From the IMG/VR virus record IMGVR_UViG_3300009610_000075, positions 1 to 27,472 of that record: 27,472 nt of DNA. One strand, 5' to 3'. The DNA comes from a virus. How positions within the stretch are numbered: position 1 is the first letter of the stretch; each line of letters begins with the position of its first letter. The translations under genes and the position numbers were made by a program. The notes below the pieces were generated by a model that ran no database searches, was not told the DNA's origin, and saw only the letters and a list, made by a program, of their open reading frames with translations. Of this stretch, positions 1 through 19,499 are shown piece after piece.

Positions 1-863
1 AGCTGCACGCGGTACACGTGGCTCACTATGCGGGACCTGGCTGATCTGTGCACTTGGTCGGCGATCATCGCCGGCTTGAACATGTGCAGCGGTAGGTCCA
101 ACCCTGTCTCCTCCCTCAGCTCCTTGGCCGCGTTCGCGATCAGGGTGAGGCCGGGCTCCAAGTATCCACCGGGCAGTGCGAGTTGCCGGTTGTCCTTTCT
201 CAACACTGTCAAAACTTCTTTGCCGTGCGTGACCACCGCGTCCGTGGCCAGGTGCGGACCGCTGCCCCACCGCGCGGTTGATTCGCATTTGTTGCCGTAT
301 GCCAGGGACATTTTCAGACTGAGGTGTGCGTTCTCTTCGGTCACCAGCCGCACGTTGTTGTGCAGGGACAGTCTCAGTAGCAGGTCTATGGAGTTCTTGG
401 ACATGGGTTCGCCGTTCAGCTTCTGGCCGAACATCGCCTCCCTGACCATGGTTCCGCTGACGCCGTCGTACCTCCCGGGCTTCGGCACGCTCATCCGCCA
501 GTTCTTCGGCAGCAGGTCGGCCATCCACTGGTCCTTTAGGCCACACACGAACACCACCTCCTGCTTGCCCTTGAACGCGTTCACCTCCAGGGTGATCTGC
601 CGCGCCCATTTGGCGTCGTCGTACGGGTAATCCCGCACCATCCTGCAGGTGACCTTGTCCTTGTGGGGTAGGGCCATCATCTGCAGCTGCACCATACGTA
701 GGCGGTCGTGGGCTGACCACGGTGTGTGCAGGTCCGGGGCGCGGCCCCTCGATCCGATGAACACCATGACCTCGTCGGCCACGTTAGTGGCGTGCTGCAA
801 CAGATGGGCATGGCCCATGTGCAGCGGGGCGAAGCGCCCGATCACGACGGCGAGTTTCTTCAT
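1..863 (-). CDS. Bifunctional NMN adenylyltransferase / Nudix hydrolase (partial)
   Basis: The first 287 residues are visible; the C-terminus lies beyond the left edge. The N-terminal half is a nucleotidyltransferase of the NadM/NMNAT type: GRFAPLHMGH at residues 9-18 holds the HxGH signature and SGTMVR at 136-141 is the second nucleotide-binding motif. NMNAT joins NMN and ATP to make NAD+. From about residue 205 a Nudix domain follows, with a box at 233-255 ending KELREETG. The first box Glu is Leu239 and the usual Arg is Lys247. Bifunctional NMNAT-Nudix proteins are known from bacteria and large phages (KVP40 NatV), where the Nudix half cleaves ADP-ribose. The ATG overlaps the stop of the macro-domain gene (ATGA), so the two are probably translationally coupled. 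The domain assignment is strong; substrate choice of the Nudix half is inferred. Confidence 0.88.
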   Translation of the reverse strand, partial: MKKLAVVIGRFAPLHMGHAHLLQHATNVADEVMVFIGSRGRAPDLHTPWSAHDRLRMVQLQMMALPHKDKVTCRMVRDYPYDDAKWARQITLEVNAFKGKQEVVFVCGLKDQWMADLLPKNWRMSVPKPGRYDGVSGTMVREAMFGQKLNGEPMSKNSIDLLLRLSLHNNVRLVTEENAHLSLKMSLAYGNKCESTARWGSGPHLATDAVVTHGKEVLTVLRKDNRQLALPGGYLEPGLTLIANAAKELREETGLDLPLHMFKPAMIADQVHRSARSRIVSHVYRVQ

Positions 864-1363
864 AGTATGTAGCACACTTTGTGCGGTACGTTCGGGGTGG
901 ACTTATCGATGATCACCTTGAGGATGTCCCAATCCCCACCGCCGAGCCCGGCGCCGATGCGCGGGAAGGCGAGCATGGGTTCGGTCTTGGTGAAGACCCC
1001 GTGTTTGTACCAGTCGTCGATGTACGCGAAGCAGGACGCCACGGCGTCGTAGCTGACGGCGCGGTCGCCCAGCAACCCTCCGACGTTGTCGTCGTACTCC
1101 ATGTTCCCCCTGCCGGTGCCTATGGCAGGCTGGGTCATGGCGTTCACGATCCACTTCTTGCTGGCGATCTTCACCAGCTGTATCGATCCGAGCACGAGCC
1201 CGTTGTCGAAGTGCTGTTTGGCGTATTCCTGCTCCACCGCCGGGAACCGCGTGGCGATCTCCTTAGCGATGCCGGAGCCCATGGCTCCCAGGCAGTTGCA
1301 TCCGTGGACGATTACGCCCTCGGGAATGTCTAAGACGTTGCCCCTGCGCTCGTGTATCGTCAT
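860..1363 (-). CDS. Macro-domain protein (ADP-ribose-1''-phosphatase-like)
   Basis: A 167-aa single-domain protein. GCNCLGAMGSGIAKEI at residues 21-36 and FPRIGAGLGGGDW at 133-145 are the two ligand-binding loops of the macro fold, in the form seen in Poa1p-like Appr-1''-P phosphatases. Asn23 matches the conserved Asn of these enzymes. The family binds ADP-ribose and either removes the 1''-phosphate, deacetylates O-acetyl-ADP-ribose, or removes ADP-ribose from proteins or DNA. The ATG at 1363 is chosen because it overlaps the upstream stop (ATGA) and places the macro fold at the N-terminus; there is no strong ribosome site, so coupling is likely. It lies directly before NMNAT-Nudix, which fits a role in ADP-ribose turnover. 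An alternative is reversal of ADP-ribosylation by a host toxin such as DarT. Confidence 0.87.
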   Translation of the reverse strand: MTIHERRGNVLDIPEGVIVHGCNCLGAMGSGIAKEIATRFPAVEQEYAKQHFDNGLVLGSIQLVKIASKKWIVNAMTQPAIGTGRGNMEYDDNVGGLLGDRAVSYDAVASCFAYIDDWYKHGVFTKTEPMLAFPRIGAGLGGGDWDILKVIIDKSTPNVPHKVCYIL

Positions 1364-1500
1364 TGGTTGGCCCAGTCGGCCAGCCTGTCCATCAGGAGCC
1401 GGTCTCTGTTCACGGCCCCGCGCCACACCCACCGCGCCCCGTCGGCCATGATGGCCGGCACTATGAGCACGAGGAACAGGAATCTTCTGACTTTGTCCAT
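1360..1500 (-). CDS. Small membrane protein, 46 aa
   Basis: A short protein starting MDKVRRFLFLVLIVPAIMA: a basic N-terminus followed by one hydrophobic segment (about residues 6-18), then a basic, amphipathic tail ending in LADWANQ. GGAGA lies 8 nt before the ATG, and the stop overlaps the start of the macro-domain gene as ATGA. It is the first gene after the terminator at 1515-1546, so its promoter is either inside that region or transcription reads through. No family is recognised. It could be a small inner-membrane peptide or a poorly cleaved signal-like peptide. Confidence 0.6.
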   Translation of the reverse strand: MDKVRRFLFLVLIVPAIMADGARWVWRGAVNRDRLLMDRLADWANQ

Positions 1501-1514
1501 CGTTGTTCTCCACA

Positions 1515-1546
1515 TTAAAAATGGCCCGACCATTGGCCGGGCCATT
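1515..1546 (-). terminator. Rho-independent terminator, leftward
   Basis: Read on the minus strand, AATGGCCCG (1546-1538) pairs with CGGGCCATT (1528-1520) across a 9-nt loop, and a run of Ts follows before TAATG. The stem is GC-rich and perfect. It lies just after the coiled-coil gene 1572-1850 and before the 46-aa membrane protein, so it separates two transcription units. Confidence 0.75.
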
Positions 1547-1571
1547 CTGCTCCACTTCTCTTGCCGGCGAA

Positions 1572-2152: not shown

Positions 2153-3328
2153 TCAATTCCCCTTCACGCACACCACCTGCTTCAGGGTGTGCACGATTTC
2201 CACGAGGTCGGCTTGGTTGGCCATGACCTCGTCGATGTCTTTGTAGGCCGACGGCAGTTCGTCGAGCACGCCCTCGTCTTTGCGGCAGACCACGCCCTCG
2301 GTCTGTCGCCTCAGGTCTTCCACCGTGAATCGTTCGCGGGCGGCTTTTCGACCATGTTTTCGACCAGCTCCATGAGAGCAGCTGGCGTAGGAAGCGGGGT
2401 TCCCTTTCCCACGAACAATAAAGGACCTGGCGCCCATGGAGCCAGGGATGATGCCCAGGTCTCCGAGACGAGCACGGATTGCCCCTTTGCGAGTAACCCA
2501 TGCGTTATGACCGTAATGATTTTCTTTTTCGACATAGTTGTGATGGCAGTTGATAGCCGTCTCCTCGATGGACACCGTGAGCTTGTGCAGCTCCCTGCAC
2601 ACCTTGTCCAGGGTCTGTACCATCATCGTCTCCCGGTTCAAGCGGGCGTAGTCCTGCGCCCACGACACCGCCTCAACGTAGTCGTCGTGGGTGGTGGTGC
2701 CGTCGGGGAGGTACGCCAGGTCTTTGTCCGGCAACGTGACGAAGAACCGCTCCATGAGCTTCTTCGCCTCGGAGATGTAGTGTGTGCCAATTTTATTTCC
2801 GATGCCGCGGCTGCCGGAGTGGAGCATGATCCACACCCGCTTCTCTTCGTCCAGGCAGATCTCCACGAAGTGGTTGCCGCCGCCGAGAGTGCCGAGTTGA
2901 CCCTCCACCCTGTCGAGCTTCATGAGGTGCTCGACCATGACTGCGAGCTTGGTGGACGGAAACTTCGGCATTGTGATCAGGGGCACCTGGTGCTGGCCTC
3001 CGGGGCCGGGCTCCACCGCCTTCTCGATGTTGTCGTGCATCCGCTGCAGGGAGTCGGGGAGCTGGTCCGCCCGCACGTTGAGTCGCGCAGCCATCATGCC
3101 GCAGCCGATGTCTACCCCCACGGCCGCGGGGATGATGGCTCCCCGAGTCGCGATAACTGAACCCACAGTTGCCCCGATTCCCCAATGCACGTCCGGCATC
3201 GCAGCGATTCCGTGAGGATGGATGAAAGGGAGGGACGCGACGTTCTTGAGCTGCTGCATGGCACCGTCGTCGACGTCGTCCGTCCAAAGGTGGATTGGGC
3301 GTTTGCCTTCTTCATTGATGACCCTCAT
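2153..3328 (-). CDS. rtcB: RtcB-type RNA 3'-phosphate ligase
   Basis: A 391-aa protein, close to the 408 aa of E. coli RtcB. All signature motifs are present: AVGVDIGCGM with metal ligands Asp73 and Cys76, GTLGGGNHF at 146-154, HSGSRGIG from His170, NCHHNY with His262/His263, PGSMG at 295-299, and CSHGAGR, whose His319 corresponds to the histidine that becomes guanylylated. RtcB joins RNA 3'-phosphate or 2',3'-cyclic phosphate ends to 5'-OH ends using GTP and Mn2+; in bacteria it repairs tRNA or rRNA cut by endonuclease toxins. The ATG at 3328 is chosen because it overlaps the lipoprotein stop (ATGA) and matches the N-terminus of the family. A tRNA-Tyr lies about 1 kb upstream in the same transcription direction. 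No archease or RtcA gene is seen in the window. Confidence 0.95.
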   Translation of the reverse strand: MRVINEEGKRPIHLWTDDVDDGAMQQLKNVASLPFIHPHGIAAMPDVHWGIGATVGSVIATRGAIIPAAVGVDIGCGMMAARLNVRADQLPDSLQRMHDNIEKAVEPGPGGQHQVPLITMPKFPSTKLAVMVEHLMKLDRVEGQLGTLGGGNHFVEICLDEEKRVWIMLHSGSRGIGNKIGTHYISEAKKLMERFFVTLPDKDLAYLPDGTTTHDDYVEAVSWAQDYARLNRETMMVQTLDKVCRELHKLTVSIEETAINCHHNYVEKENHYGHNAWVTRKGAIRARLGDLGIIPGSMGARSFIVRGKGNPASYASCSHGAGRKHGRKAARERFTVEDLRRQTEGVVCRKDEGVLDELPSAYKDIDEVMANQADLVEIVHTLKQVVCVKGN

Positions 3329-3621
3329 TGTCCGAACCTTATGGTTTCTCCCACGTTGCCCCAGAAGCCGCAGTCTTTCCACCTTCTCCCGGGTACCCCG
3401 GTTGGTGAACCTGCAGCGGTCTCGAATAGTGTTTCCTCTTTGCTGTTGCAATCTTCGTTTTTGCGGATGTCTATTACTTTTGCGAATACGTCCTTTGATC
3501 CTAGAATGGCTTCCGTCACAGGTTCAGATTTTGCAGCCGTTGATTCAACGGCTTTTGCTGCCGGCACTGGTTCGCCGCATCCTGTCAGTAGGAGGCTAAG
3601 AACTATGACTAGTTTTTTCAT
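3325..3621 (-). CDS. Predicted lipoprotein, 98 aa
   Basis: The N-terminus has two Lys, a hydrophobic core and a lipobox LTGC with Cys15, the expected site of lipid attachment. The mature part is polar, contains three further cysteines (in the stretches NEDCNS, WKDCGF and the lipid Cys itself) and no recognisable domain. AAGGTG lies about 7 nt before the ATG, and the stop overlaps rtcB. The first 26 bases overlap the preceding 55-aa gene. Phage lipoproteins are often superinfection-exclusion or Rz1-like spanin proteins; this one is not proline-rich, so a spanin is unlikely. The role is unknown. Confidence 0.72.
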   Translation of the reverse strand: MKKLVIVLSLLLTGCGEPVPAAKAVESTAAKSEPVTEAILGSKDVFAKVIDIRKNEDCNSKEETLFETAAGSPTGVPGRRWKDCGFWGNVGETIRFGQ

Positions 3622-4359: not shown

Positions 4360-4446
4360 TGGTGGGTGAGGCAGGGATCGAACCTGCACGGGCTAGCCGA
4401 CCTCGGAGTTACAGTCCGGTGCCCTTCCATCCTGGGCGTCCCACCC
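4360..4446 (-). tRNA. tRNA-Tyr (anticodon GTA)
   Basis: An 87-nt cloverleaf can be drawn by hand. The acceptor stem is GGGTGGG with CTCACCC (one G-T pair). The D stem is GCCC/GGGC. The anticodon loop is CTGTAAC, with GTA in the anticodon position on a stem of four pairs plus a closing C-A mismatch. The variable arm is about 15 nt with a CGG/CCG stem, which makes this a class II tRNA as expected for bacterial tRNA-Tyr. The T arm is GCAGG-TTCGATC-CCTGC. The discriminator is A and the 3' CCA is encoded. The gene lies between two protein genes with gaps of 2 and 15 nt, so it is probably processed from the operon mRNA. Confidence 0.94.
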
Positions 4447-4667: not shown

Positions 4668-4755
4668 AGCATCCTCACGAAAATGGTGGAAGCGGAGCTG
4701 CTTTGGCCGGGCCGAAGCCCCGCTGTACGCCGCTTACCCCGCCCCCGTTGATGGG

Positions 4756-5994
4756 TTACTTCTTGAGATCCAAGTTCAGGTCTTTGGCCGTTTTGATGGT
4801 AAGCAGCTCCATGAACGTGGTCGCCATGTTCGGCGATCCGCCCGCGGCCCCGCCACCCATGTAGGTGCTGGGAACCCATGCGCCCTTGTAATTCTCGATC
4901 GCGTGTGCGTACATCTTGTTCACTTCCTTGTACGCGTCCAGTTTCTGCGTCAGCGCGCCGTCGGCATTCATCACCAGCCGCTTGCGCTCCGACTCGCCCT
5001 GGCCCAGCAGGATCTCACGTTGCTTCGTGAATTCGGCCGCTTCCTTCTGGAGCTTCGCAACCTCCTTCTGCTGCTCGGCCTCGGTCACCGCCTGTGCCTT
5101 AATGGTCTCCTGCTTCCACTTGGCCGCGGCCGCGTTCGACGCGCCCTGGGCTTCGGTGGTGAGCTTCTCCTGCTCGGCCCTGCGGGCGTTGGCCATGGCG
5201 ATTTGCACCTGCGTCTTCGATTGCTGTTGCTCCTGGATCTGCTTCTCGACCGCCTGCTCGTATTTGATCTCGCTTATCGTCGTCTGCACGAGCTGGATGC
5301 CGTACTCGGCTATGGCCGACACCGCGCTGCGCTGCGGAGTGCCGTCCTTGTTCTTCAGCACCTCCACTATGCTGACGGTTCGTTCGGTCTTGGTGATCGG
5401 ATCCATCTGCCGTTCCTGCCGCGTGCTGGTCTTGTACACGCCGTTCTTCAGCTGGTCTTCGATGAGGGACAACAGCTCGGCCCTTCGCTCGGCCGACGAC
5501 TCCGTAGACGTCATCATCTGGCCGGAGAAATAGATGGCGTTGGTCAGCGCCTTCGCCACCAGCTGCTGCTCCACCGCGTCCTGCGACCCGAAGTCCTTCT
5601 GGATCTGCAGCAGCAGCTCGGGCTTCAGCGGCATCTCCCACGACAGCGCGCCGCACAGCTGGGCGTGGCCGCCTTCGCTGAATCGGATGGTCTGCGGGCC
5701 GGAGTCCCCGTTCTTGGAGGCGCCCTTGCACACTTTCGCGTCGTTGTCGAACGAGAACTGACTCCGCCGCTCGTACTTCGTTGTCGTGCCGAACCACGTG
5801 AACGTCGGTCCCGGTTCGGTGTAGGTCTTCAACGTGCCGTTGGGGAACTGCACGTTCATCAGGTGCTTCGCGTCGAGCCACGTCACGCAGCCGAACAGGA
5901 CCACGATGATGGCCAGCAGCGCCGTCAGTCCCACGATTCCCTTGGCGAGAACGCTGCTGTTAATCGCCAGGTTTGGATTGTTTAAGCTGTTCAT
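4756..5994 (-). CDS. SPFH/band-7 domain membrane protein
   Basis: A 412-aa protein. A short cytoplasmic N-terminus is followed by one membrane helix (about residues 20-37, KGIVGLTALLAIIVVLFG). An SPFH-like region follows (about 45-250), with the phrase TEPGPTFTWFG resembling the 'PG-h-F' turn after the membrane segment in stomatins. A long Ala/Gln/Glu/Lys-rich coiled coil covers about 255-355, as in flotillin/prohibitin proteins. SPFH proteins form membrane-bound oligomeric rings or cages and often modulate proteases such as FtsH. AAGGAG precedes the ATG by 9 nt, and the start lies within the end of the small membrane protein gene 5960-6187. The family call rests on overall architecture and is fairly secure; the role in infection is unknown. 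Confidence 0.75.
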   Translation of the reverse strand: MNSLNNPNLAINSSVLAKGIVGLTALLAIIVVLFGCVTWLDAKHLMNVQFPNGTLKTYTEPGPTFTWFGTTTKYERRSQFSFDNDAKVCKGASKNGDSGPQTIRFSEGGHAQLCGALSWEMPLKPELLLQIQKDFGSQDAVEQQLVAKALTNAIYFSGQMMTSTESSAERRAELLSLIEDQLKNGVYKTSTRQERQMDPITKTERTVSIVEVLKNKDGTPQRSAVSAIAEYGIQLVQTTISEIKYEQAVEKQIQEQQQSKTQVQIAMANARRAEQEKLTTEAQGASNAAAAKWKQETIKAQAVTEAEQQKEVAKLQKEAAEFTKQREILLGQGESERKRLVMNADGALTQKLDAYKEVNKMYAHAIENYKGAWVPSTYMGGGAAGGSPNMATTFMELLTIKTAKDLNLDLKK

Positions 5995-6187
5995 CTTCGA
6001 TCTCCTTCTTGATGTTGCGATTGAGGGATTCTTCCTTGGCCATGGACCAGAGCCCGAGCAGTTTTCCTTCTTCCCTCAACATCGGGAACACGGGTGTTCC
6101 CCTCATGAGGGGCAGGCACACTTGCGTGACGAACCCCACGACGATGATGACAAATAGCAGGATCTGCACTATTAGTACGATGTTCAT
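5960..6187 (-). CDS. Small single-pass membrane protein, 75 aa
   Basis: The protein starts MNIVLIVQILLFVIIVVGFV, a single N-terminal membrane helix, followed by a charged cytoplasmic tail (SLNRNIKKEIEDEQLKQSK). AAGGAG lies 6 nt before the ATG. Its 3' end overlaps the SPFH gene start by 35 bases, so the two are probably made together and may act together. NfeD-like partners of SPFH proteins are larger and have an OB fold, which this lacks. Confidence 0.75.
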   Translation of the reverse strand: MNIVLIVQILLFVIIVVGFVTQVCLPLMRGTPVFPMLREEGKLLGLWSMAKEESLNRNIKKEIEDEQLKQSKPGD

Positions 6188-12190: not shown

Positions 12191-12227
12191 CAGACCGAAC
12201 GAACCGGGTACCCGGTTCTTCGGTCTG
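12191..12227. repeat. 37-nt near-perfect palindrome centred on GGGTACCC
   Basis: CAGACCGAA (12191-12199) and GAACCGGGT (12201-12209) pair with ACCCGGTTC (12210-12218) and TTCGGTCTG (12219-12227): 18 base pairs with one bulged C at 12200. It begins 6 nt after the 26-bp palindrome. Confidence 0.87.
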
Positions 12228-12323
12228 TGGGGGAGGGGACCCAGCACCTTGTCATAGACCACCTTTTTTCACGATGTGAAATCCTAGGAGCTGCAGGCAC
12301 CGGGCTGCGCGCAAATGTAAAAC

Positions 12324-12352
12324 TTGAAAAAATATATAAAATCCTGTATACT
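12324..12352 (+). promoter_or_regulatory. Sigma-70-like promoter of the small terminase gene
   Basis: TTGAAA (12324-12329), a 17-bp AT-rich spacer and TATACT (12347-12352). The expected start of transcription is about 12359, only three bases before the terS ATG at 12362. The preceding 12310-12345 is strikingly AT-rich for this genome. Confidence 0.8.
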
Positions 12353-12361
12353 CTTAGACCT

Positions 12362-13027
12362 ATGACTCGCAAAATGAGCGGCCGGCAAGAGAAATACGTC
12401 GAGGCGCGGGCCCGCGGGCTGCCGCGGGAGGAGTCGGCCATATTGGCGGGCTACCCGGCGGGGCAAGGAGCCGGAAAGCAAGTGGAAACAAAGCCCACCG
12501 TGGCCCAGGAACTGGCCAAAATACGGGCCGCCATGGCCATCGGCTCCGGCGTGACCAAGGAGGACATCGTCCAGATGCTCCTCGACGCTGCCGCCATCTC
12601 AAAACTGAACATGGACGCCATCGGCATGATCGGGGCGGCCCGCGAACTCGGCCGGATGCTCGGTTTTTACGCCCCGGAGGTCAAAAAGACCTTGATTGGG
12701 CTTGACAAAGACATGATGCGCAAGGCCATAAACGACATGACCGACGAAGAACTGCTGAAAATTGCCAACGCGAGGACGATCGATGGACAACATAGTCGAG
12801 TTGCTGATCCCACCCCGAATTTGCAGCAACTGCAAGACGGAAAAGCCAGCGAACCAGTTCTACCGCCTCCACACGGAGTGCAGGGGATGCGTGAGGACAG
12901 CCTCGGCGGCGGACAACACGTTGACTCTGGACCAGAAGGCGGAGTCGCGGAAGCAGGAGAGGCTGCTGAGGCAGGAACTGAAGAAGATAGCCCTGGCGAG
13001 GTTCGAAAAGAAGAGGACCGAGCGTAA
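12362..13027 (+). CDS. terS: Terminase small subunit
   Basis: A 221-aa protein. Residues 5-32 (MSGRQEKYVEARARGLPREE...ILAGYP) match the helix-turn-helix start of many phage small terminases ('LTxxQxxFVxxYxxGxxxxxAxxxAGY'). Helices for oligomerisation follow (VTKEDIVQMLLDAAAISKLN, residues about 62-81), and the segment ending DMTDEELLKIANAR (about 127-140) resembles the usual C-terminal part. TerS recognises the packaging site and regulates TerL. The last roughly 80 residues (after about 141) overlap the N-terminus of TerL in another frame, are Gly/Glu/Pro-rich and look unlike a normal domain. No ribosome site precedes the ATG, consistent with a leaderless mRNA. An in-frame ATG four codons later is the alternative start. 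Confidence 0.82.
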   Translation: MTRKMSGRQEKYVEARARGLPREESAILAGYPAGQGAGKQVETKPTVAQELAKIRAAMAIGSGVTKEDIVQMLLDAAAISKLNMDAIGMIGAARELGRMLGFYAPEVKKTLIGLDKDMMRKAINDMTDEELLKIANARTIDGQHSRVADPTPNLQQLQDGKASEPVLPPPHGVQGMREDSLGGGQHVDSGPEGGVAEAGEAAEAGTEEDSPGEVRKEEDRA

Positions 13028-14618
13028 GAAGAAGGCCCGACACCAGGTCGAGAAGCCAACCGACGTCAGCGACGTCCCGCCGGTAGACCCGGCGTTCAAG
13101 GAGTTGGCGCGCCGCGAGCTGGCCAGGCGCAAACTCATCGAGTTCGTGAAGCAGTTCCACCCCCGGTACAAGGCCGGGTGGGTGCACCACGACATCTGCC
13201 GCCGGCTGGAGAAGTTCATGCGGGACGTGGAGGCCGGCCTGTCTCCGCGCCTCATGATCCTGATGCCCCCGCGGCATGGCAAGAGCCAGCTCGCGTCGAA
13301 GCTGTACCCGGCGTACCACCTGGGGCACTTCCCACACCACGAGTTCATTGCCTGCTCGTACAACATATCGCTGGCGCTGGAGTTCTCGCGGGAGGTGCGC
13401 GAGGTGGTCCGGTCGGACTACTACTCGAAGCTGTTCCCGAACACCCGGATCAACCCCGAGTTCCAGTCGGCGGAGACGTGGAAGCTCGCCAGTCCCACCG
13501 GCGTCGGCTCCGGCGGGTACGTCGCGGCCGGCATCGGGGTGGGCATCACCGGGAAGGGCGCCCACGTCCTCGTGATCGACGATCCCGTCAAGAACGCGGA
13601 GGAGGCGGAGAGCGCCGAGCTGCGCCAGAAGCACTGGGACTGGTACATCTCGTCCGCCTACAGCCGGCTCGCGCCGGGCGGCGGCGTGCTGGTGATCCAG
13701 ACATGGTGGCACGACGACGACCTGGCCGGCCGCCTGCAGAAGCTCATGCTGGAGGACCCGGAGGGGGCGGATAAGTTCGAGGTCATCAAGTACCCGGCGA
13801 TCGCGGAGGAGGACGAGGAGTTCAGGCAGAAGGGCGAGGCGCTGCATCCCGAGCGCTACGACCTCAAGTCCCTGGAGCGGATCCGCCGGCTGCACCAGGG
13901 CGGCCGGTACTGGTCGGCCCTGTACCAGCAGTCCCCGGTCAGCGACGACGGCGCCTACTTCACGGACAAGATGTTCACGTATCGGGACAACACGCCCCGG
14001 ATAGAGGACATGCACATCTACCAGGCCTGGGACACCGCCATATCGGAGGAGTCCCAGCGCCAGAACAACTGGACCGTCGGCGTGACGATGGGCCTGGACC
14101 ACAACGACATGGTGCACGTGCTCAAACGGGTGAGGATCAAGACCAATGACTCGGCCGAGATCGAGGACGCCATCATCGACATGTACCGGGAGTACCCCCG
14201 CGTCCACGGCATCGGGTTTGAGGATGGCCAGATCTTCAAGACGATGCGCTCGTCCTTGAAAAGGCGAATGAAAGAGCGTAAAGTGTACATCCCGCTGGAC
14301 GAGAAGGCGAACGTGCTCAAGCCGGTCAAGGAGAAGACCGTCCGCGCGCGGCCGCTACAGGCCCGGATGCAGAATGGCAAGGTCACCTGGCCCCGGGGAC
14401 AGGAGTGGGTGGACGAGATGCGGAAGGAGTTCGTCAGGTTCCCGGTCGGGACCCAGGACGACCAGGTCGACGCCTCGGCATGGTGCATCCAGCTGCTTTT
14501 GGGCAAGTCGCCGCCGAACGCGCCCAAGCCGCCGCGGTCTAAAACCGAGAAGACGGTCGCCCAGAAATTACGCGCATTTGGTCACATTAGTGACGCTGGT
14601 GGGCACATGCTGGCTTGA
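12783..14618 (+). CDS. terL: Terminase large subunit with N-terminal zinc ribbon
   Basis: A 611-aa packaging motor. The ATPase half has Walker A MPPRHGKS (residues 161-168) and Walker B HVLVIDDP (about 261-268). The RNase-H-like nuclease half has AWDTAISEES with Asp417 and a C-terminal QDDQVDASAW with Asp559, Asp560 and Asp563. It drives DNA into the prohead and cuts it. The ATG at 12783 has GAGG 8 nt before it, inside terS. Residues 14-36 form a four-cysteine zinc ribbon (CSNC and CRGC), followed by a very basic coiled linker (about residues 56-95). This ribbon is not a usual part of TerL and resembles those next to phage HNH proteins. The first 245 bases are shared with terS. Confidence 0.95.
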   Translation: MDNIVELLIPPRICSNCKTEKPANQFYRLHTECRGCVRTASAADNTLTLDQKAESRKQERLLRQELKKIALARFEKKRTERKKKARHQVEKPTDVSDVPPVDPAFKELARRELARRKLIEFVKQFHPRYKAGWVHHDICRRLEKFMRDVEAGLSPRLMILMPPRHGKSQLASKLYPAYHLGHFPHHEFIACSYNISLALEFSREVREVVRSDYYSKLFPNTRINPEFQSAETWKLASPTGVGSGGYVAAGIGVGITGKGAHVLVIDDPVKNAEEAESAELRQKHWDWYISSAYSRLAPGGGVLVIQTWWHDDDLAGRLQKLMLEDPEGADKFEVIKYPAIAEEDEEFRQKGEALHPERYDLKSLERIRRLHQGGRYWSALYQQSPVSDDGAYFTDKMFTYRDNTPRIEDMHIYQAWDTAISEESQRQNNWTVGVTMGLDHNDMVHVLKRVRIKTNDSAEIEDAIIDMYREYPRVHGIGFEDGQIFKTMRSSLKRRMKERKVYIPLDEKANVLKPVKEKTVRARPLQARMQNGKVTWPRGQEWVDEMRKEFVRFPVGTQDDQVDASAWCIQLLLGKSPPNAPKPPRSKTEKTVAQKLRAFGHISDAGGHMLA

Positions 14619-14640
14619 TTTATGTAACGAGAATGGCCCT

Positions 14641-14969
14641 TTTCGTGTAAAAACTACACAAATTACACTTTCAACTACACTTATCCCATTGATTACGAAG
14701 GGAATTACAGATTAGGTTACACTTTAAGAATCGTCTGTAACCTGTTGATTGTTCGCCCCTAAGAGAACCTAAAGAAAGAAAAAACTACACTTTATCTATA
14801 TATTTACTTTAAAAATAAAAATTTATTTTTGGACCCAGTGGTTTTATAGTGGAAGTAGAAAAAAGTGTAGTTTCTGTAGTTTTTTGCCATTTTTGCCTGT
14901 TTCGCCCGTTGAATCATGTGCTTGGGCCACTACACATTGTGTAGTGGAAGTGTAGTCAAAGTGTAGTTT
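14641..14969. repeat. AT-rich region with iteron-like ACTACAC/GTGTAGT array
   Basis: The 362 bp between terL and the next gene (14619-14980) hold no gene and are far more AT-rich than the surroundings. The heptamer ACTACAC occurs four times forward (14653, 14674, 14784, 14929) and four times as GTGTAGT (14865, 14939, 14950, 14961), with near matches at 14662, 14716 and 14874. The 12-mer AAACTACACTTT is exact three times (14782-14793 forward; 14862-14873 and 14958-14969 reversed). Two copies form a 9-bp inverted repeat around ATT (14927-14947). The forward copies mostly lie left and the reversed copies right of a core of A/T runs (14791-14830). The layout resembles a replication origin with iterons and an unwinding element, or an operator array. 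Confidence 0.85.
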
Positions 14970-14980
14970 CCGGAGAAATC

Positions 14981-15157
14981 ATGAAATTCAGGCTCCCAAA
15001 CGGACAAATCATCACCCGGCACACGACTGCGCCGGTCTGCGGCACCGGGATCAAGGCTGTCGAGTTCACGGCCCGGGACTTCCGGACCTTCATGCAGCTG
15101 CCGGATGGCAAGCTCAGGGACTACCTCAACCACATCCATTGCAGGTTCGTCCCATGA
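14981..15157 (+). CDS. Hypothetical protein, 58 aa
   Basis: GGAG lies 5-6 nt before the ATG. The protein starts MKFRLPNGQIITRHTTAPVC, with short strands followed by a helix (VEFTARDFRTFMQLPDGKLR) and ends HIHCRFVP. The stop overlaps the next start (ATGA). It lies directly beside the last repeat of the ACTACAC array, so it may be controlled by whatever binds there. No family is recognised. Confidence 0.65.
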   Translation: MKFRLPNGQIITRHTTAPVCGTGIKAVEFTARDFRTFMQLPDGKLRDYLNHIHCRFVP

Positions 15158-15357
15158 TCCCTTGGTACAACCCGCTGCGTTTCCTGATCCTGGTGGCCGC
15201 GTGCCTGGTCGCCGGCATCATGCTCCTGCTCATGGCCGTCGGCGCCCTGGCGCGCCGGCTCGCGCCGCCCAGCGCCGAGTCGCCCAGGTCTGGGTACCAG
15301 GGTCCCGAGCGCCGGGGTACCGCGCGCTGGCAGGACGACGGAGGGATCGATGGCTGA
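15154..15357 (+). CDS. Single-pass membrane protein, 67 aa
   Basis: The ATG at 15154 overlaps the upstream stop (ATGA). The protein starts MIPWYNPLRFLILVAACLVA and has one long hydrophobic helix (about residues 9-31), then a basic, Pro/Arg/Gly-rich tail (RRLAPPSAESPRSGYQGPER). Its end overlaps the next gene by 8 bases. Size and position in a late operon allow a holin or spanin-like role, but no lysis enzyme is seen nearby. Confidence 0.7.
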   Translation: MIPWYNPLRFLILVAACLVAGIMLLLMAVGALARRLAPPSAESPRSGYQGPERRGTARWQDDGGIDG

Positions 15358-17311
15358 TGAGCTGAGGGCGCTGGAGAGGGTCGAGTCCGGGGGTGAGAAA
15401 CACCTCAAGTTCGCCCGCGGGCGGCTCGCTGCGCTCGCCGCGGCCAGGAAAGATCTCCGACTCCCCAGCCTGCAGAAGCACTTCAAGATTGGGTCATCGC
15501 TTGTCCGCATGAAGTCCACTGACTGGGGTGACTTAATCTATATCACCGCGGGAGGTGGTCCGTGGAACTTCTACTTCCTCACGACAAAGGCCACCATACC
15601 GGGGACGGACGCACAGGTGGCTGCCCTCGCTGCGGCCTTTGGCCTAACCATCCCTCAGCTCCTGGCGGCGCTGGGGTTGTCCACCGTGGAGCAACTGAAA
15701 GAGCTGCTCGGCACTGGCGTGGTCAGGCGGCTGCACGTGGGGGACATAGGTGGCGCCACGTCCGTCGCTACAGCGTCCACTGTGCTGGATGCAGGAGCCG
15801 GGTCACTGACCGTATCTTCTTCCAGGTCCGTGGACGCTCCGCACCTCATAGTCAGGCAGGACAACACATGGAGGGTGGTAGATCCAGACAGGAAGACGAT
15901 ATATGTCAGCGATGGGTTGTTCGATGGCTTGACCATTCATAGTTTCGTGGCTGGTAACAGCTGGGCCCTATCACTGAACGAGGGATCTGGTTTCAGGCTG
16001 CTCACGAAAGACACCAGCATCGCCATCCCGGCCAGGTCGTCCACCAATAACGTCCTCCGTCCAACGGAGGACGCTGCATACTTTGTGCGGTCTCGGACGA
16101 CGTCCGTGGTCGATGGTCTGCCTGGCATACAGATATATAAGGCGGGGGTGATCGCTCCTCAGGAAGTGCGTACGGACTGGGATGTTGCATGGCCGCCGGG
16201 GGTAAACTTCGACACGTCTGTCCCCAAGTCTTCCACCAGGAGGGACTGCCTGGTTTTGTGGTGGGGGGAGGCCACAGGCACCATCCTCTCTGGAGGTGGG
16301 GCAAGCTTAGAGGCCAATAGGTTGGCGGCCCCGACCCATGTGTACTCGTATGTCTTGAACAGGGAAGTCGGGTTTGTCTCACAGGGGTATTCGCTGTTGG
16401 ACACTCCGGACAATGACTCCACGAACAGGGAGACGGCGAATGCCACGGACTTATTTGTCATGGGCCTTCGCGGCTCCAGGGGTACTACCAGCGGTTCCCT
16501 GGTAGATGATCCACTGTCAAACCACACCTTCTGTACCGTTCGCGCCGCGGCCCAGTTCTCAGAGGCAGGAGAGTTGACGGACTACGTCGTCTCCTCTCTA
16601 GACACGGTCATAGTCGGTCCGTCTGTTGCGGACGAGTTCACCAACTTCAGGGCAGCCGGCCCACTGCCGCTTAAGAACGGGGCGTGGCTGCCGTTCGTCC
16701 TGCGGGATTCTTACCATGATCCGTTGGAGTTCGAGTATTGGTCACTGAGGAGCGACGGCACTACATTCTCTTTCAGGTCCCCGATAGTGGCCAACACGTT
16801 CGACAGTTTTACTCGCGAGTTCCGGGCCTCCGTCGGCGACGACATGTGGACAATACTCTTGAATGGTCAGACCGGCATCAGCAGCACGCTGCAGTTCTGG
16901 AGGCAGGGCTTCAAGGTGTTTGAGAGCGCGGCCTTCGTCCCGAATAACACACTTAGAGTGGCGGGAGCTACGGCGAGCACGGTGTACATGCACTGCCCGA
17001 TCGCAGGATCCAGTCGCTTGATAGGTAGCGATGGGACAGATTTCAGGGTGCACGACTACCTGCCGGCCACGGCCGGCTTGGTGCAGTCCTTCCAGGCAAC
17101 ACAGGACACAATATATGGCTTCGGGTCTCATTCTACCGGGAAGATCTATCATATAACTGATCTGAAAGCAGCAGCGGAAGGTCCTCCGGTTCCTGGCGTG
17201 AAGACGTATCCCTATGATGGTGCGTTGGTGCTGACCGTCCCGTCTGTGGCTATCCCGGATCCGTCGTACATCTTGCGTGGTCAGGAGCTCGAAGCATGGC
17301 CTGCACCTTGA
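15350..17311 (+). CDS. Large hypothetical protein, probable virion component, 653 aa
   Basis: GGAGGG lies 4 nt before the ATG. Residues 1-50 are charged and helical. Residues 75-130 include a hydrophobic helix pair (AQVAALAAAFGLTIPQLLAA). From about 135 to the end the protein is rich in beta strands, Ser, Thr, Gly and Asp with many aromatic turns (for example RQDNTWRVVDPDRKTIYVSD and FGSHSTGKIYHITDLKA), the pattern of beta-propeller or beta-helix virion proteins. The gene lies between terL and portal, an unusual place for a tail or decoration protein. The stop codon lies inside the -35 box of the portal promoter. No family could be named; receptor-binding or tail-associated function is inferred only. 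Confidence 0.78.
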   Translation: MADELRALERVESGGEKHLKFARGRLAALAAARKDLRLPSLQKHFKIGSSLVRMKSTDWGDLIYITAGGGPWNFYFLTTKATIPGTDAQVAALAAAFGLTIPQLLAALGLSTVEQLKELLGTGVVRRLHVGDIGGATSVATASTVLDAGAGSLTVSSSRSVDAPHLIVRQDNTWRVVDPDRKTIYVSDGLFDGLTIHSFVAGNSWALSLNEGSGFRLLTKDTSIAIPARSSTNNVLRPTEDAAYFVRSRTTSVVDGLPGIQIYKAGVIAPQEVRTDWDVAWPPGVNFDTSVPKSSTRRDCLVLWWGEATGTILSGGGASLEANRLAAPTHVYSYVLNREVGFVSQGYSLLDTPDNDSTNRETANATDLFVMGLRGSRGTTSGSLVDDPLSNHTFCTVRAAAQFSEAGELTDYVVSSLDTVIVGPSVADEFTNFRAAGPLPLKNGAWLPFVLRDSYHDPLEFEYWSLRSDGTTFSFRSPIVANTFDSFTREFRASVGDDMWTILLNGQTGISSTLQFWRQGFKVFESAAFVPNNTLRVAGATASTVYMHCPIAGSSRLIGSDGTDFRVHDYLPATAGLVQSFQATQDTIYGFGSHSTGKIYHITDLKAAAEGPPVPGVKTYPYDGALVLTVPSVAIPDPSYILRGQELEAWPAP

Positions 17312-17363: not shown

Positions 17364-19499
17364 ATGCCCACCGACACAAAAGTAGCGCAGGACCAGTGGG
17401 AGAGGTACGCGTACTGCCGCGACGAGGGCGGGCACCTGGAGTACGTCCGGAAGTCGCGTATGTGCGAGGACTTCTTCGCCGGGCTCCAGTGGGACCCGGC
17501 CATCGCCGCCGAGCTCAAGGAGCAGCGCCGGCCCGCGCTCACGATCAACAAGATCCTAGGGACGATGTCCTCGATCTTCGGGGAGCAGATCGACCTGCGC
17601 CAGGAGATTGCCTACAAGGCCGCCTTCGGCGCGCCGGCCGGCGGCTCCGACATCCTGACGAAGACTTTCCGGCACATCTCCGGGAAGAACCAACTCGACT
17701 GGCTCCGCAGCGAGATGTTCGCCGACGGGTGCATCACGTCCCGCGGCTACGTCGACGCCCGCATGAACTTCGACCGCTCCCTGACCGGGGACGTGGTCAT
17801 CTCCAGCCGGAACCCCCGCAACACGATCCCCGACCCGGACGCGCACGAGTACGATCCGGACAAGTGGGGCGACGTCATCCACACGTCCTGGATGTCGGCG
17901 GACGACATCGCCGTTCTATACAGCGAGGCCAAGGCCAAGGAGCTCCGCAACAGGGGCGCGTCGGCCTGGGCCTTCGGCTTCGACTCCCTGGACAACTTCC
18001 GCGACAGGTTCGCGGGAGACAGCCAGCTCGGCTCGGTGAACGTCGCGCACGGCGACGACCCCACCTCCCGCATGATCCGGGTCATCGACCGGCAGCACCG
18101 CGTGCTGTCCAGGATCAAGTACTTCGTGAACACGAGGTCCGGCGACCGGAAGGAGATACCCGGCTCGTGGGACCAGAACAAGATCAACCTGTTCCTGGCG
18201 CAGAACCAGGTCCTTGCCGTGGACGAGGTCCCGGGACGCAAGATACAGTGGACCGTGACCGCGGACGACGTGGTCCTGCACGACAAGGCGTCGCCGTACA
18301 AGCACTTCACCATCGTGCCGTTCTTCCCGCACTTCCGGTACGGGCGGACCATCGGCCTGGTCGAGAACCTGATCGACCTGCAGGAGCTGCTCAACAAGAC
18401 CACGTCCCAGGAGCTGCACGTCGTGAACACGATGGCGAACTCGGGGTGGAAGGTCAAGACCGGCTCGCTCAAGAACCTCACCATGGACGAGCTGGAGATG
18501 ACCGGCGCCCGCACGGGGATCGTGCTGGAGCTGGACGACACCAAGGACGCGGAGAAGATCCAGCCGAACCAGATACCGCAGGGCCTTGACCGCCTGTCGA
18601 TGAAGGCGGAGAACTACATCAAGTCCGTGTCCGGCCGGGGCGACGCCCAGATGGGGATGACCCGGGCCGACGTGTCCGCGGACCAGATCGAGGCGAACAA
18701 CGCGTTCGGCGACGTGTCCCTGCTCAAGTGCATGGACAACCTGCGCCGGACCGACTGGATACTGGCGCGGAACGTGCGCGACCTGGTCCAGGAGTTCTAC
18801 ACCGACCCGCGCATCCTCCGGATCACGAACAACCAGCTGACCGGGGAGCAGCAGGAGATCAAGATCAACTGGCCGGACCCGACCACGGGGGAGATCCAAG
18901 ACGACCTGTCAATGGGGGACTACGACATCGAGGTCATCAGCCAGCCCGCGAAGCAGACCCTGGAGGACAGTCAGTTCGAGCAGGCGGCGTACCTCAAGGA
19001 GAAGCTCGGGGTGCCGATCCCCGACGAGTTCCTGATCGAGAACAGCCGGCTGATCAACAAGACGGCCCTGGTCCAAGGGATCAAGGCGGCGCGCGAGGGC
19101 CCGGAGGCCCAGGCCCAGCAGAAGATCCAGATGCTCGGCGGGCAGCTGGAGCTGGCGAACCTCAAGGCAGACATCTCGAAGACTGAGGCGGACGCCGTGC
19201 TCAAGCGGTCGAAGGCGGCGTCGGAGCTGCAGAGCATGCAGGGGCAGCCCGGGGAGGCCGAGGCCGCCCAGCAGGAGATGCTCCTGGAGCAGCAGAAGCA
19301 CGAGCAGAAGATGACCCAGGACAAGGAGAAGCACGACCAGGAGATGGCGCTGGCCGTGGAGAAGGCGCGGCTGGATGCGCAGATCAAGGCGCAGCAGGCG
19401 AAGGAAGACGCCCGGCTCAAGCGGGCGCAGGCGATCCTCACGATGAAGCAGGCGGCGGAGAAGCCGGCCGCCGGTGGGCAGGAGAAGAAGGCCGCGTAG
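17364..19499 (+). CDS. Portal protein (P22-like)
   Basis: At 711 aa it matches the length of P22-type portals (725 aa in P22). The N-terminal region (ERYAYCRDEGGHLEYVRKSR, PALTINKILGTMSSIFGEQI) and the middle (FFPHFRYGRTIGLVENLIDL, then QELLNKTTSQELHVVNTMAN) carry the typical sequence of this family, including the glycine-rich turn before the long stem helix. The last roughly 150 residues are an Ala/Gln/Glu/Lys-rich coiled coil like the barrel of P22 gp1. Twelve copies form the DNA entry channel at one head vertex and dock TerL. GAGG precedes the ATG. It has its own promoter at 17308-17336. Confidence 0.93.
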   Translation: MPTDTKVAQDQWERYAYCRDEGGHLEYVRKSRMCEDFFAGLQWDPAIAAELKEQRRPALTINKILGTMSSIFGEQIDLRQEIAYKAAFGAPAGGSDILTKTFRHISGKNQLDWLRSEMFADGCITSRGYVDARMNFDRSLTGDVVISSRNPRNTIPDPDAHEYDPDKWGDVIHTSWMSADDIAVLYSEAKAKELRNRGASAWAFGFDSLDNFRDRFAGDSQLGSVNVAHGDDPTSRMIRVIDRQHRVLSRIKYFVNTRSGDRKEIPGSWDQNKINLFLAQNQVLAVDEVPGRKIQWTVTADDVVLHDKASPYKHFTIVPFFPHFRYGRTIGLVENLIDLQELLNKTTSQELHVVNTMANSGWKVKTGSLKNLTMDELEMTGARTGIVLELDDTKDAEKIQPNQIPQGLDRLSMKAENYIKSVSGRGDAQMGMTRADVSADQIEANNAFGDVSLLKCMDNLRRTDWILARNVRDLVQEFYTDPRILRITNNQLTGEQQEIKINWPDPTTGEIQDDLSMGDYDIEVISQPAKQTLEDSQFEQAAYLKEKLGVPIPDEFLIENSRLINKTALVQGIKAAREGPEAQAQQKIQMLGGQLELANLKADISKTEADAVLKRSKAASELQSMQGQPGEAEAAQQEMLLEQQKHEQKMTQDKEKHDQEMALAVEKARLDAQIKAQQAKEDARLKRAQAILTMKQAAEKPAAGGQEKKAA

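Follow-up and report, generated by a model that had tools for sequence, protein, structure and literature searches.

A mirrored array of short repeats around an AT-rich core in a KPP25-like podovirus: a candidate movable replication origin

Introduction

What is a dense array of short repeats doing in an AT-rich gap between the large terminase gene and the late genes of a phage? The array lies in a 27,472-bp IMG/VR virus record (hereafter the window), a fragment of a KPP25-like podovirus. A sequence-only reading of this DNA had recognised in it the layout of a replication origin, i.e., iterons plus an unwinding element, or else a multi-site operator. To our knowledge, most phage origins are unknown and unannotated. 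Here we compare the array with the corresponding sites of close and distant relatives, with similar arrays in unrelated phages, and with the primase-helicases that might act on it. The iteron-and-unwinding-element layout held and gained comparative support, and an operator stands as the main rival. We favour the view that the element is the replication origin of this phage, or one of its origins, with a probability of roughly 0.6.

Results

The plus strand of the window encodes the terminase subunits, a P22-type portal protein and a coat protein, and the minus strand has a cluster running leftward that includes RtcB and a Band_7 protein. By TerL, the nearest named phages are phiA008 and the Kochitakasuvirus group (KPP25, phiR18, CRPAP1904, and R4900a), at ~42-45% identity. 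Used as query, the first 25 kb of this DNA gave no nucleotide-level match to phage records, and the array gap itself showed no nucleotide similarity to such records. The true start of terL may lie somewhat downstream of position 12762. The 653-aa protein encoded after the array is conserved over its ~75 N-terminal residues and highly variable in the remainder among close relatives, resembling by its sequence a virion-attached variable (receptor-binding-like) protein; its structure model had a pLDDT of 29. No initiator gene was found in the window, a fragment that ends before the primase-helicase region.

The leftward cluster includes the RtcB RNA ligase gene (2153-3451, minus strand) and a tRNA-Tyr (GTA) gene (4360-4446, minus strand). 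The window also encodes a Macro-domain protein (860-1555, minus strand) and an NMNAT+NUDIX protein (3-875, minus strand) that is cut by the window edge. In G001, a 67-kb member of the same clade, NAMPT is encoded beside NMNAT/NUDIX (L250:3691-4722, 4709-6115); together these enzymes form an NAD+ salvage set that possibly acts against NAD-depleting defences.

The array gap contains eight exact copies of one heptamer, four as ACTACAC on the plus strand (14653, 14674, 14784, and 14929) and four as its complement GTGTAGT (14865, 14939, 14950, and 14961), within 315 bp (14653-14967). This count agrees with the eight copies in ~320 bp originally reported, and is far beyond chance: in dinucleotide shuffles of the gap the best heptamer averaged 2.4 copies and never exceeded four (0/2000 reached eight). 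The window as a whole contains ten exact copies, compared to 1.25 ± 1.18 in shuffles (0/100 reached ten). Only two of these lie outside the gap, and the scatter of the 12-mer AAACTACACTTT/AAAGTGTAGTTT through the genome that would have spoken against a localised element was not seen. As the sequence-only reading had stated, this 12-mer encloses three of the copies (at 14782, 14862, and 14958). Its three near copies were borne out in part: two have one mismatch (14662 and 14874), and a third is obtained only by counting two-mismatch copies of the TTACACT type.

Layout and composition of the gap are likewise distinctive. Seven of the eight exact copies point inward, forward to the left of an A/T-rich core and reversed to its right, the exception being the copy at 14929; this bears out the orientation first described. 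Neighbouring copies are often spaced by 10-11 or 21 bp, e.g., 14653/14674 (21 bp) and 14929/14939/14950/14961 (10, 11, and 11 bp), a regularity that the sequence-only reading did not mention. The inverted pair noted near the downstream gene is present, CCACTACACA/TGTGTAGTGG at 14927-14936/14938-14947, and is perfect over 10 bp rather than the 9 bp given before. With a GC content of 0.35 against 0.61 for the window, the gap is the lowest-GC site of the window, so the AT content does stand out; its neighbours are terL and the virion-like gene, which confirms the reported position between terL and late genes. No other inverted hexamer array with at least six copies occurs in the window. Within the gap we found no DnaA boxes and no convincing RNA family, tRNA, or terminator.

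Table 1. Coordinates of the array, its parts and the neighbouring genes in the window
Positions	Strand	Feature	Basis
12227..13027	+	ORF that includes terS, the small-terminase gene; HTH motif is conserved across the clade	
12762..14618	+	terL, large terminase (phrog_38; Terminase_6N/6C), upstream neighbour of array	
14619..14980	.	AT-rich non-coding gap holding the array, 362 bp, GC 0.35; proposed replication-origin-like element	
14645..14680	+	Left repeat set: two ACTACAC (14653, 14674), one-mismatch copy at 14662, GTGTAAA at 14645	
14715..14740	.	GGTTACACTTT and CTGTAAC, degenerate copies with two mismatches, located from the left set to the core	Read from sequence
14782..14793	+	Left edge of AT core: 12-mer AAACTACACTTT	
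14791..14862	.	AT-rich core, 72 bp, 79% A+T, TTTATCTATATATTTACTTTAAAAATAAAAATTTATTTTT...; candidate DNA unwinding element	
14862..14885	-	Right edge of AT core: 12-mer AAAGTGTAGTTT and one-mismatch CTGTAGT at 14874	
14927..14969	-	Right repeat set: three GTGTAGT (14939, 14950 and 14961; 11-bp steps) and forward copy at 14929	
14981..15157	+	First small ORF 3' of array, 58 aa, MKFRLPNGQ...	Read from sequence
15350..17311	+	653-aa protein between array and portal; virion-protein-like	
17364..19499	+	P22-type portal protein	

Searches with TerL yielded 80 loci, and a portal-profile search added L090 and L094 (genomes G018 and G001, respectively) and L146 (G019), which are organised in the same way. 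Among the 80 TerL loci, only the two closest, L002 and L003, have an AT-rich gap after terL, and each gap contains a repeated heptamer of its own. Overall, the array occupies the gap downstream of terL in the window and in four other distinct clade members, and its position is kept across these five while the repeat letters differ: CTGCTAC occurs seven times in L003, CTCGTAA ten times in L002, CGTAACA eight times in L094, and GACACGA six times in L146. Each of the five arrays was unmatched in shuffles (0/2000), with a significant inverted score as well. In all of them the copies change direction across an AT-rich core, apart from exceptions like that in the window, and 11 of the 16 short same-strand distances across them equal 10, 11, 21 or 22 bp. 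Downstream of the array, the window, L002, L003, and L146 encode a large protein that has the conserved ~75-aa N-terminus and variable remainder described above; relatives without an array have at most one short gene from terL to the portal gene.

We extended the comparison to 16 relatives that lack an array in the terL gap and whose TerL proteins are ~50% identical. In 14 of the 16, the AT-richest 300 bp lies directly upstream of the gene for a primase-helicase (DUF5906/VapE-like, phrog_24712), and in the other two this site ranks second-lowest in GC. In the clade of the window the AT-richest site is instead the terL gap, and the primase gap of G001, the sole clade genome that reaches the primase, is ordinary (GC 0.44-0.46, no repeats). 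By eye, the primase gaps of the outgroups contain AT cores, often with mirrored short repeats. Most of these sites are AT-rich without significant exact repeats and some hold simple-repeat runs; since exact arrays stand out statistically in no gaps but those of G009 and G012 (CTTCCA), with G013 marginal, these sites are likely, not proven, equivalents of the window array.

Many genomes carry a second, matching site. The best 300-bp match to the primase gap by shared 8-mers is found at a distance of 24-34 kb (0.37-0.50 of the contig) in 13 of 15 outgroup contigs; it stands clearly above the next best in ten contigs and slightly above it in three (G003, G010, and G014), and 8-mer sharing with the primase gap revealed no matched site in G005 and G016. 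Separately, G005 carries a head-to-tail tandem repeat of CGTACGTATTGCT (~six units, L274:8783-8860) upstream of its terminase region. The complete, circular 64.1-kb genome of KPP25 contains CGTAACA arrays in two gaps, at ~26.4-26.8 and ~58.25-58.55 kb, that are about half a genome apart, gene-free, and unannotated (L324:26218-26894, L333:20070-20633). The arrangement in phiR18 is alike, with a pair of CGTAACA arrays that are unannotated and separated by half a genome (L331/L363). The heptamer of KPP25 overlaps the one in L002 and recurs unchanged in G001, a genome in which no second array was found. The use of the same letters at paired sites within a genome, and different letters across genomes, fits a single genome-specific DNA-binding protein. 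A term search of a paper on a KPP25-like phage gave no mention of a replication origin (PMC13340246).

A D5/SF3-type primase-helicase is encoded by G001 and by all long relatives examined; in KPP25 the gene is ORF056. A winged-helix-like segment is predicted at the C-terminus of the G001 protein, with helices at 707-718 and 725-734 and then two strands. Its structure model (mean pLDDT 70, low pTM) matched the C-terminal region of the NrS-1 primase, D5/E5, PriRep1, the SaPI5 primase-helicase, and E1, and a profile search retrieved the NrS-1 primase by sequence. These modelled matches are to self-loading initiator helicases, which would favour the origin reading. Repeat letters and winged-helix residues both group KPP25 with G001, and G008, G011, and G017 form another group. 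Such joint variation is suggestive, and the formal test did not reach significance (partial Mantel-type test, partial r = 0.16, P = 0.056). The primase-helicase of G010 (L285:15643-18840, minus strand) has an apparent intein with an HNH endonuclease at residues ~537-755.

Similar arrays also occur in unrelated phages. A scan for three ACTACAC copies at 11-bp steps returned 16 viral contigs, and a control heptamer returned 13; phased triplets are thus not rare, the contig count is meaningless, and the contexts of the arrays alone were used. Inverted, phased arrays around an AT core lie directly beside genes for a D5/DUF5906 primase-helicase (L343), another primase-helicase (L341), and a Prim-Pol (L345). 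The control set has such arrays immediately next to Toprim primases; these TGGTGCAG arrays (L351:3569-3700, L362:530-720) have the same design with other letters in unrelated phages. One-directional arrays sit elsewhere, e.g., at an ArpU-like regulator (L335) or integrases (L355 and L358), and L344 has a mirrored array close to an ArpU-like gene.

GC skew was set aside as origin evidence. Skew follows gene direction, shows no turn at the array, and within the window turns ~5 kb to its left. The cumulative skew of G001 has its minimum at 51.5 kb (terL-forward), ~2.4 kb from the array, and its maximum half a genome away. This turn coincides with a switch of gene strand, the outgroups have the opposite polarity, and KPP25 has no turn at its arrays; skew is therefore uninformative here.

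Discussion

An origin is favoured by the design of the array, its kept position with changing letters, its apparent movement, the matched pairs, and the adjacency of similar arrays to primase genes. As relatives carry a like stretch elsewhere with other letters, the element is probably a movable replication origin. In the mechanism that we infer, a phage-encoded initiator would bind the 7-bp repeats, many of them on one face of the helix owing to the 10-11-bp steps. The opposed repeat sets would load two initiator/helicase assemblies, face to face over the 72-bp AT-rich core, which would melt between them, allowing initiation. Initiation would probably fall to the D5/SF3-type primase-helicase, whose gene is located elsewhere in the genome and which has a predicted winged-helix DNA-binding segment at its C-terminus. 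In the clade the element would serve from inside the late operon, between terL and the variable virion-like gene, and in most relatives from upstream of the primase gene. Several of the above results count against an origin: the window fragment holds no initiator gene, G001 yields no second array, significant exact repeats are absent from most primase gaps of relatives, skew does not turn at the array, and the covariation of repeat letters with the winged helix is weak. Also counting against it are that G001, the only clade genome to include the primase, has it ~15 kb from the array, and that some phased ACTACAC arrays lie beside ArpU-like late regulators (L335 and L344).

The latter observation bears on the main rival, a multi-site operator in which a regulator on the phased repeats would control the genes after terL or, in relatives, the primase operon. 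Phasing along the helix is a usual feature of sites for cooperative regulators, 13 bp separate the end of the array from the start codon that follows, the gap of the relatives also sits upstream of a gene, and the same heptamer recurs at 11-bp spacing beside the ArpU-like regulators of L335/L337 and L344. The mirrored arrangement in L344 in particular keeps this explanation alive. However, an operator does not require a long AT-rich core amid mirrored sets, and no sigma-70-like promoter, the only type scanned, was found in or near the gap. The element moves among unrelated genes (terL and the virion-like gene, the primase, and the early and late gaps of KPP25) with no fixed promoter, and AT-core arrays also occur 3' of primase genes (L343 and L341), where a primase promoter is not expected. 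No late regulator gene was recognised among the array neighbours examined. We consider an operator unlikely, though the strongest of the rivals. The array may otherwise be functionless, i.e., a mobile-DNA remnant or a fast-evolving AT-rich spacer with repeats from slippage, in keeping with the wholly different letters between relatives and the simple-repeat runs in some outgroup gaps. Against this, position and design are shared by five distinct members, the repeats are mirrored and phased, and a matching second element within single genomes indicates a shared trans-acting constraint, leaving a functionless spacer quite improbable.

Sites of packaging and partition can have a comparable appearance. 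In the pac site of P1, repeated hexamers form two sets around a centre, and ring models of TerS have DNA wrapped with helical periodicity. The two short-repeat sets of the array resemble that arrangement and, in the clade, adjoin the terminase genes, as a pac-like site read by the small terminase might. Yet the HTH motif of TerS (RARGLxREQSAIxAGY-like) is conserved in the window, G001/G018, and G019 while the repeats differ, which makes a packaging site less likely, if only inferentially; moreover, no array lies close to terL in relatives whose terminase is of the same type, and paired elements half a genome apart are ill-suited to a pac site. Packaging is accordingly an improbable function. 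The centromeres of ParR and related systems also consist of short repeats, phased at 10-11 bp, that flank a centre, and the array would match a partition site of the ParR/TubR/omega type in a plasmid-like phage. A ParB-type site is disfavoured because no ParB N-domain protein was found in G001, KPP25, and eight relatives by a search that was positive in control genomes, and the two antipodal sites of the relatives also speak against partition, an explanation that we regard as highly improbable.

Returning to the favoured reading of the array as an origin, its relatives tentatively suggest a broader picture. The family might replicate from paired, matched, roughly antipodal origins of iterons and AT core, bound by the primase-helicase and with fast-changing letters; the clade of the window would then retain a single origin, relocated to the packaging/structural operon. 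If so, initiation in this clade would occur next to terL, with possible coupling to late transcription or packaging. An origin at this site would provide a sequence signature for the origins of a widespread, poorly studied podovirus group that includes cultured Pseudomonas phages such as KPP25, and the two-origin arrangement would be directly testable in cultivable phages. It would also mean that origins shift in place and letters between close relatives, and would caution against assuming that an origin is located with the replication genes.

Known replication systems offer several parallels. Phage P4 has its alpha protein with ori1 and crr. Alpha, a primase-helicase that serves as initiator, has its DNA-binding domain at the C-terminus and works with two iteron-bearing sites located apart from each other, paralleling the arrangement proposed here, whereas the iterons and the genome type differ. 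Alpha and its cognate site are mentioned in work on E. coli PICIs, whose origins always have two iteron sets around an AT-rich region (PMC6092414). In the Pri-Rep origins of PICIs and SaPIs (EcCICFT073, SaPIbov1, and SaPI5), the iteron letters differ among elements, as they do among the arrays described here. Their initiators are cognate D5/SF3-type primase-helicases, to which the modelled G001 primase-helicase appears similar in fold. However, PICIs and SaPIs are satellites with the origin directly beside the rep gene, and the present element belongs to a ~65-kb phage and sits within the late operon, in G001 at ~15 kb from the primase gene. As the array is not beside the primase-helicase, we class it as working like a PICI/SaPI-type origin, not as a member of that group. 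The SaPI Rep recognises iterons via its C-terminal domain, as does Cch2 of SCCmec, a helicase whose C-terminal domain binds short iterons (AAGTG) near its gene (PMC7581432). The putative SCCmec origin, as far as it is described there, has three direct repeats only, unmirrored around an AT core, in contrast to the mirrored sets here.

For an origin within late genes, phage SPP1 provides a precedent. It has two similarly organised origins, of which oriR lies in a segment with three moron genes that interrupts the late genes; oriR and oriL both consist of direct repeats plus an AT-rich unwinding element, with repeats common to both sites (PMC6316719), and KPP25 is alike in this respect. SPP1 uses the initiator G38P with a DnaB-type helicase, in contrast to the D5-type primase-helicase here. 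Its origins are ~13 kb apart, compared to about half a genome for the arrays of KPP25 and phiR18 and to the one array seen in the window clade. The repeats and AT-rich unwinding element of oriR lie within the late gene block, as do the repeats and the candidate unwinding element of the window.
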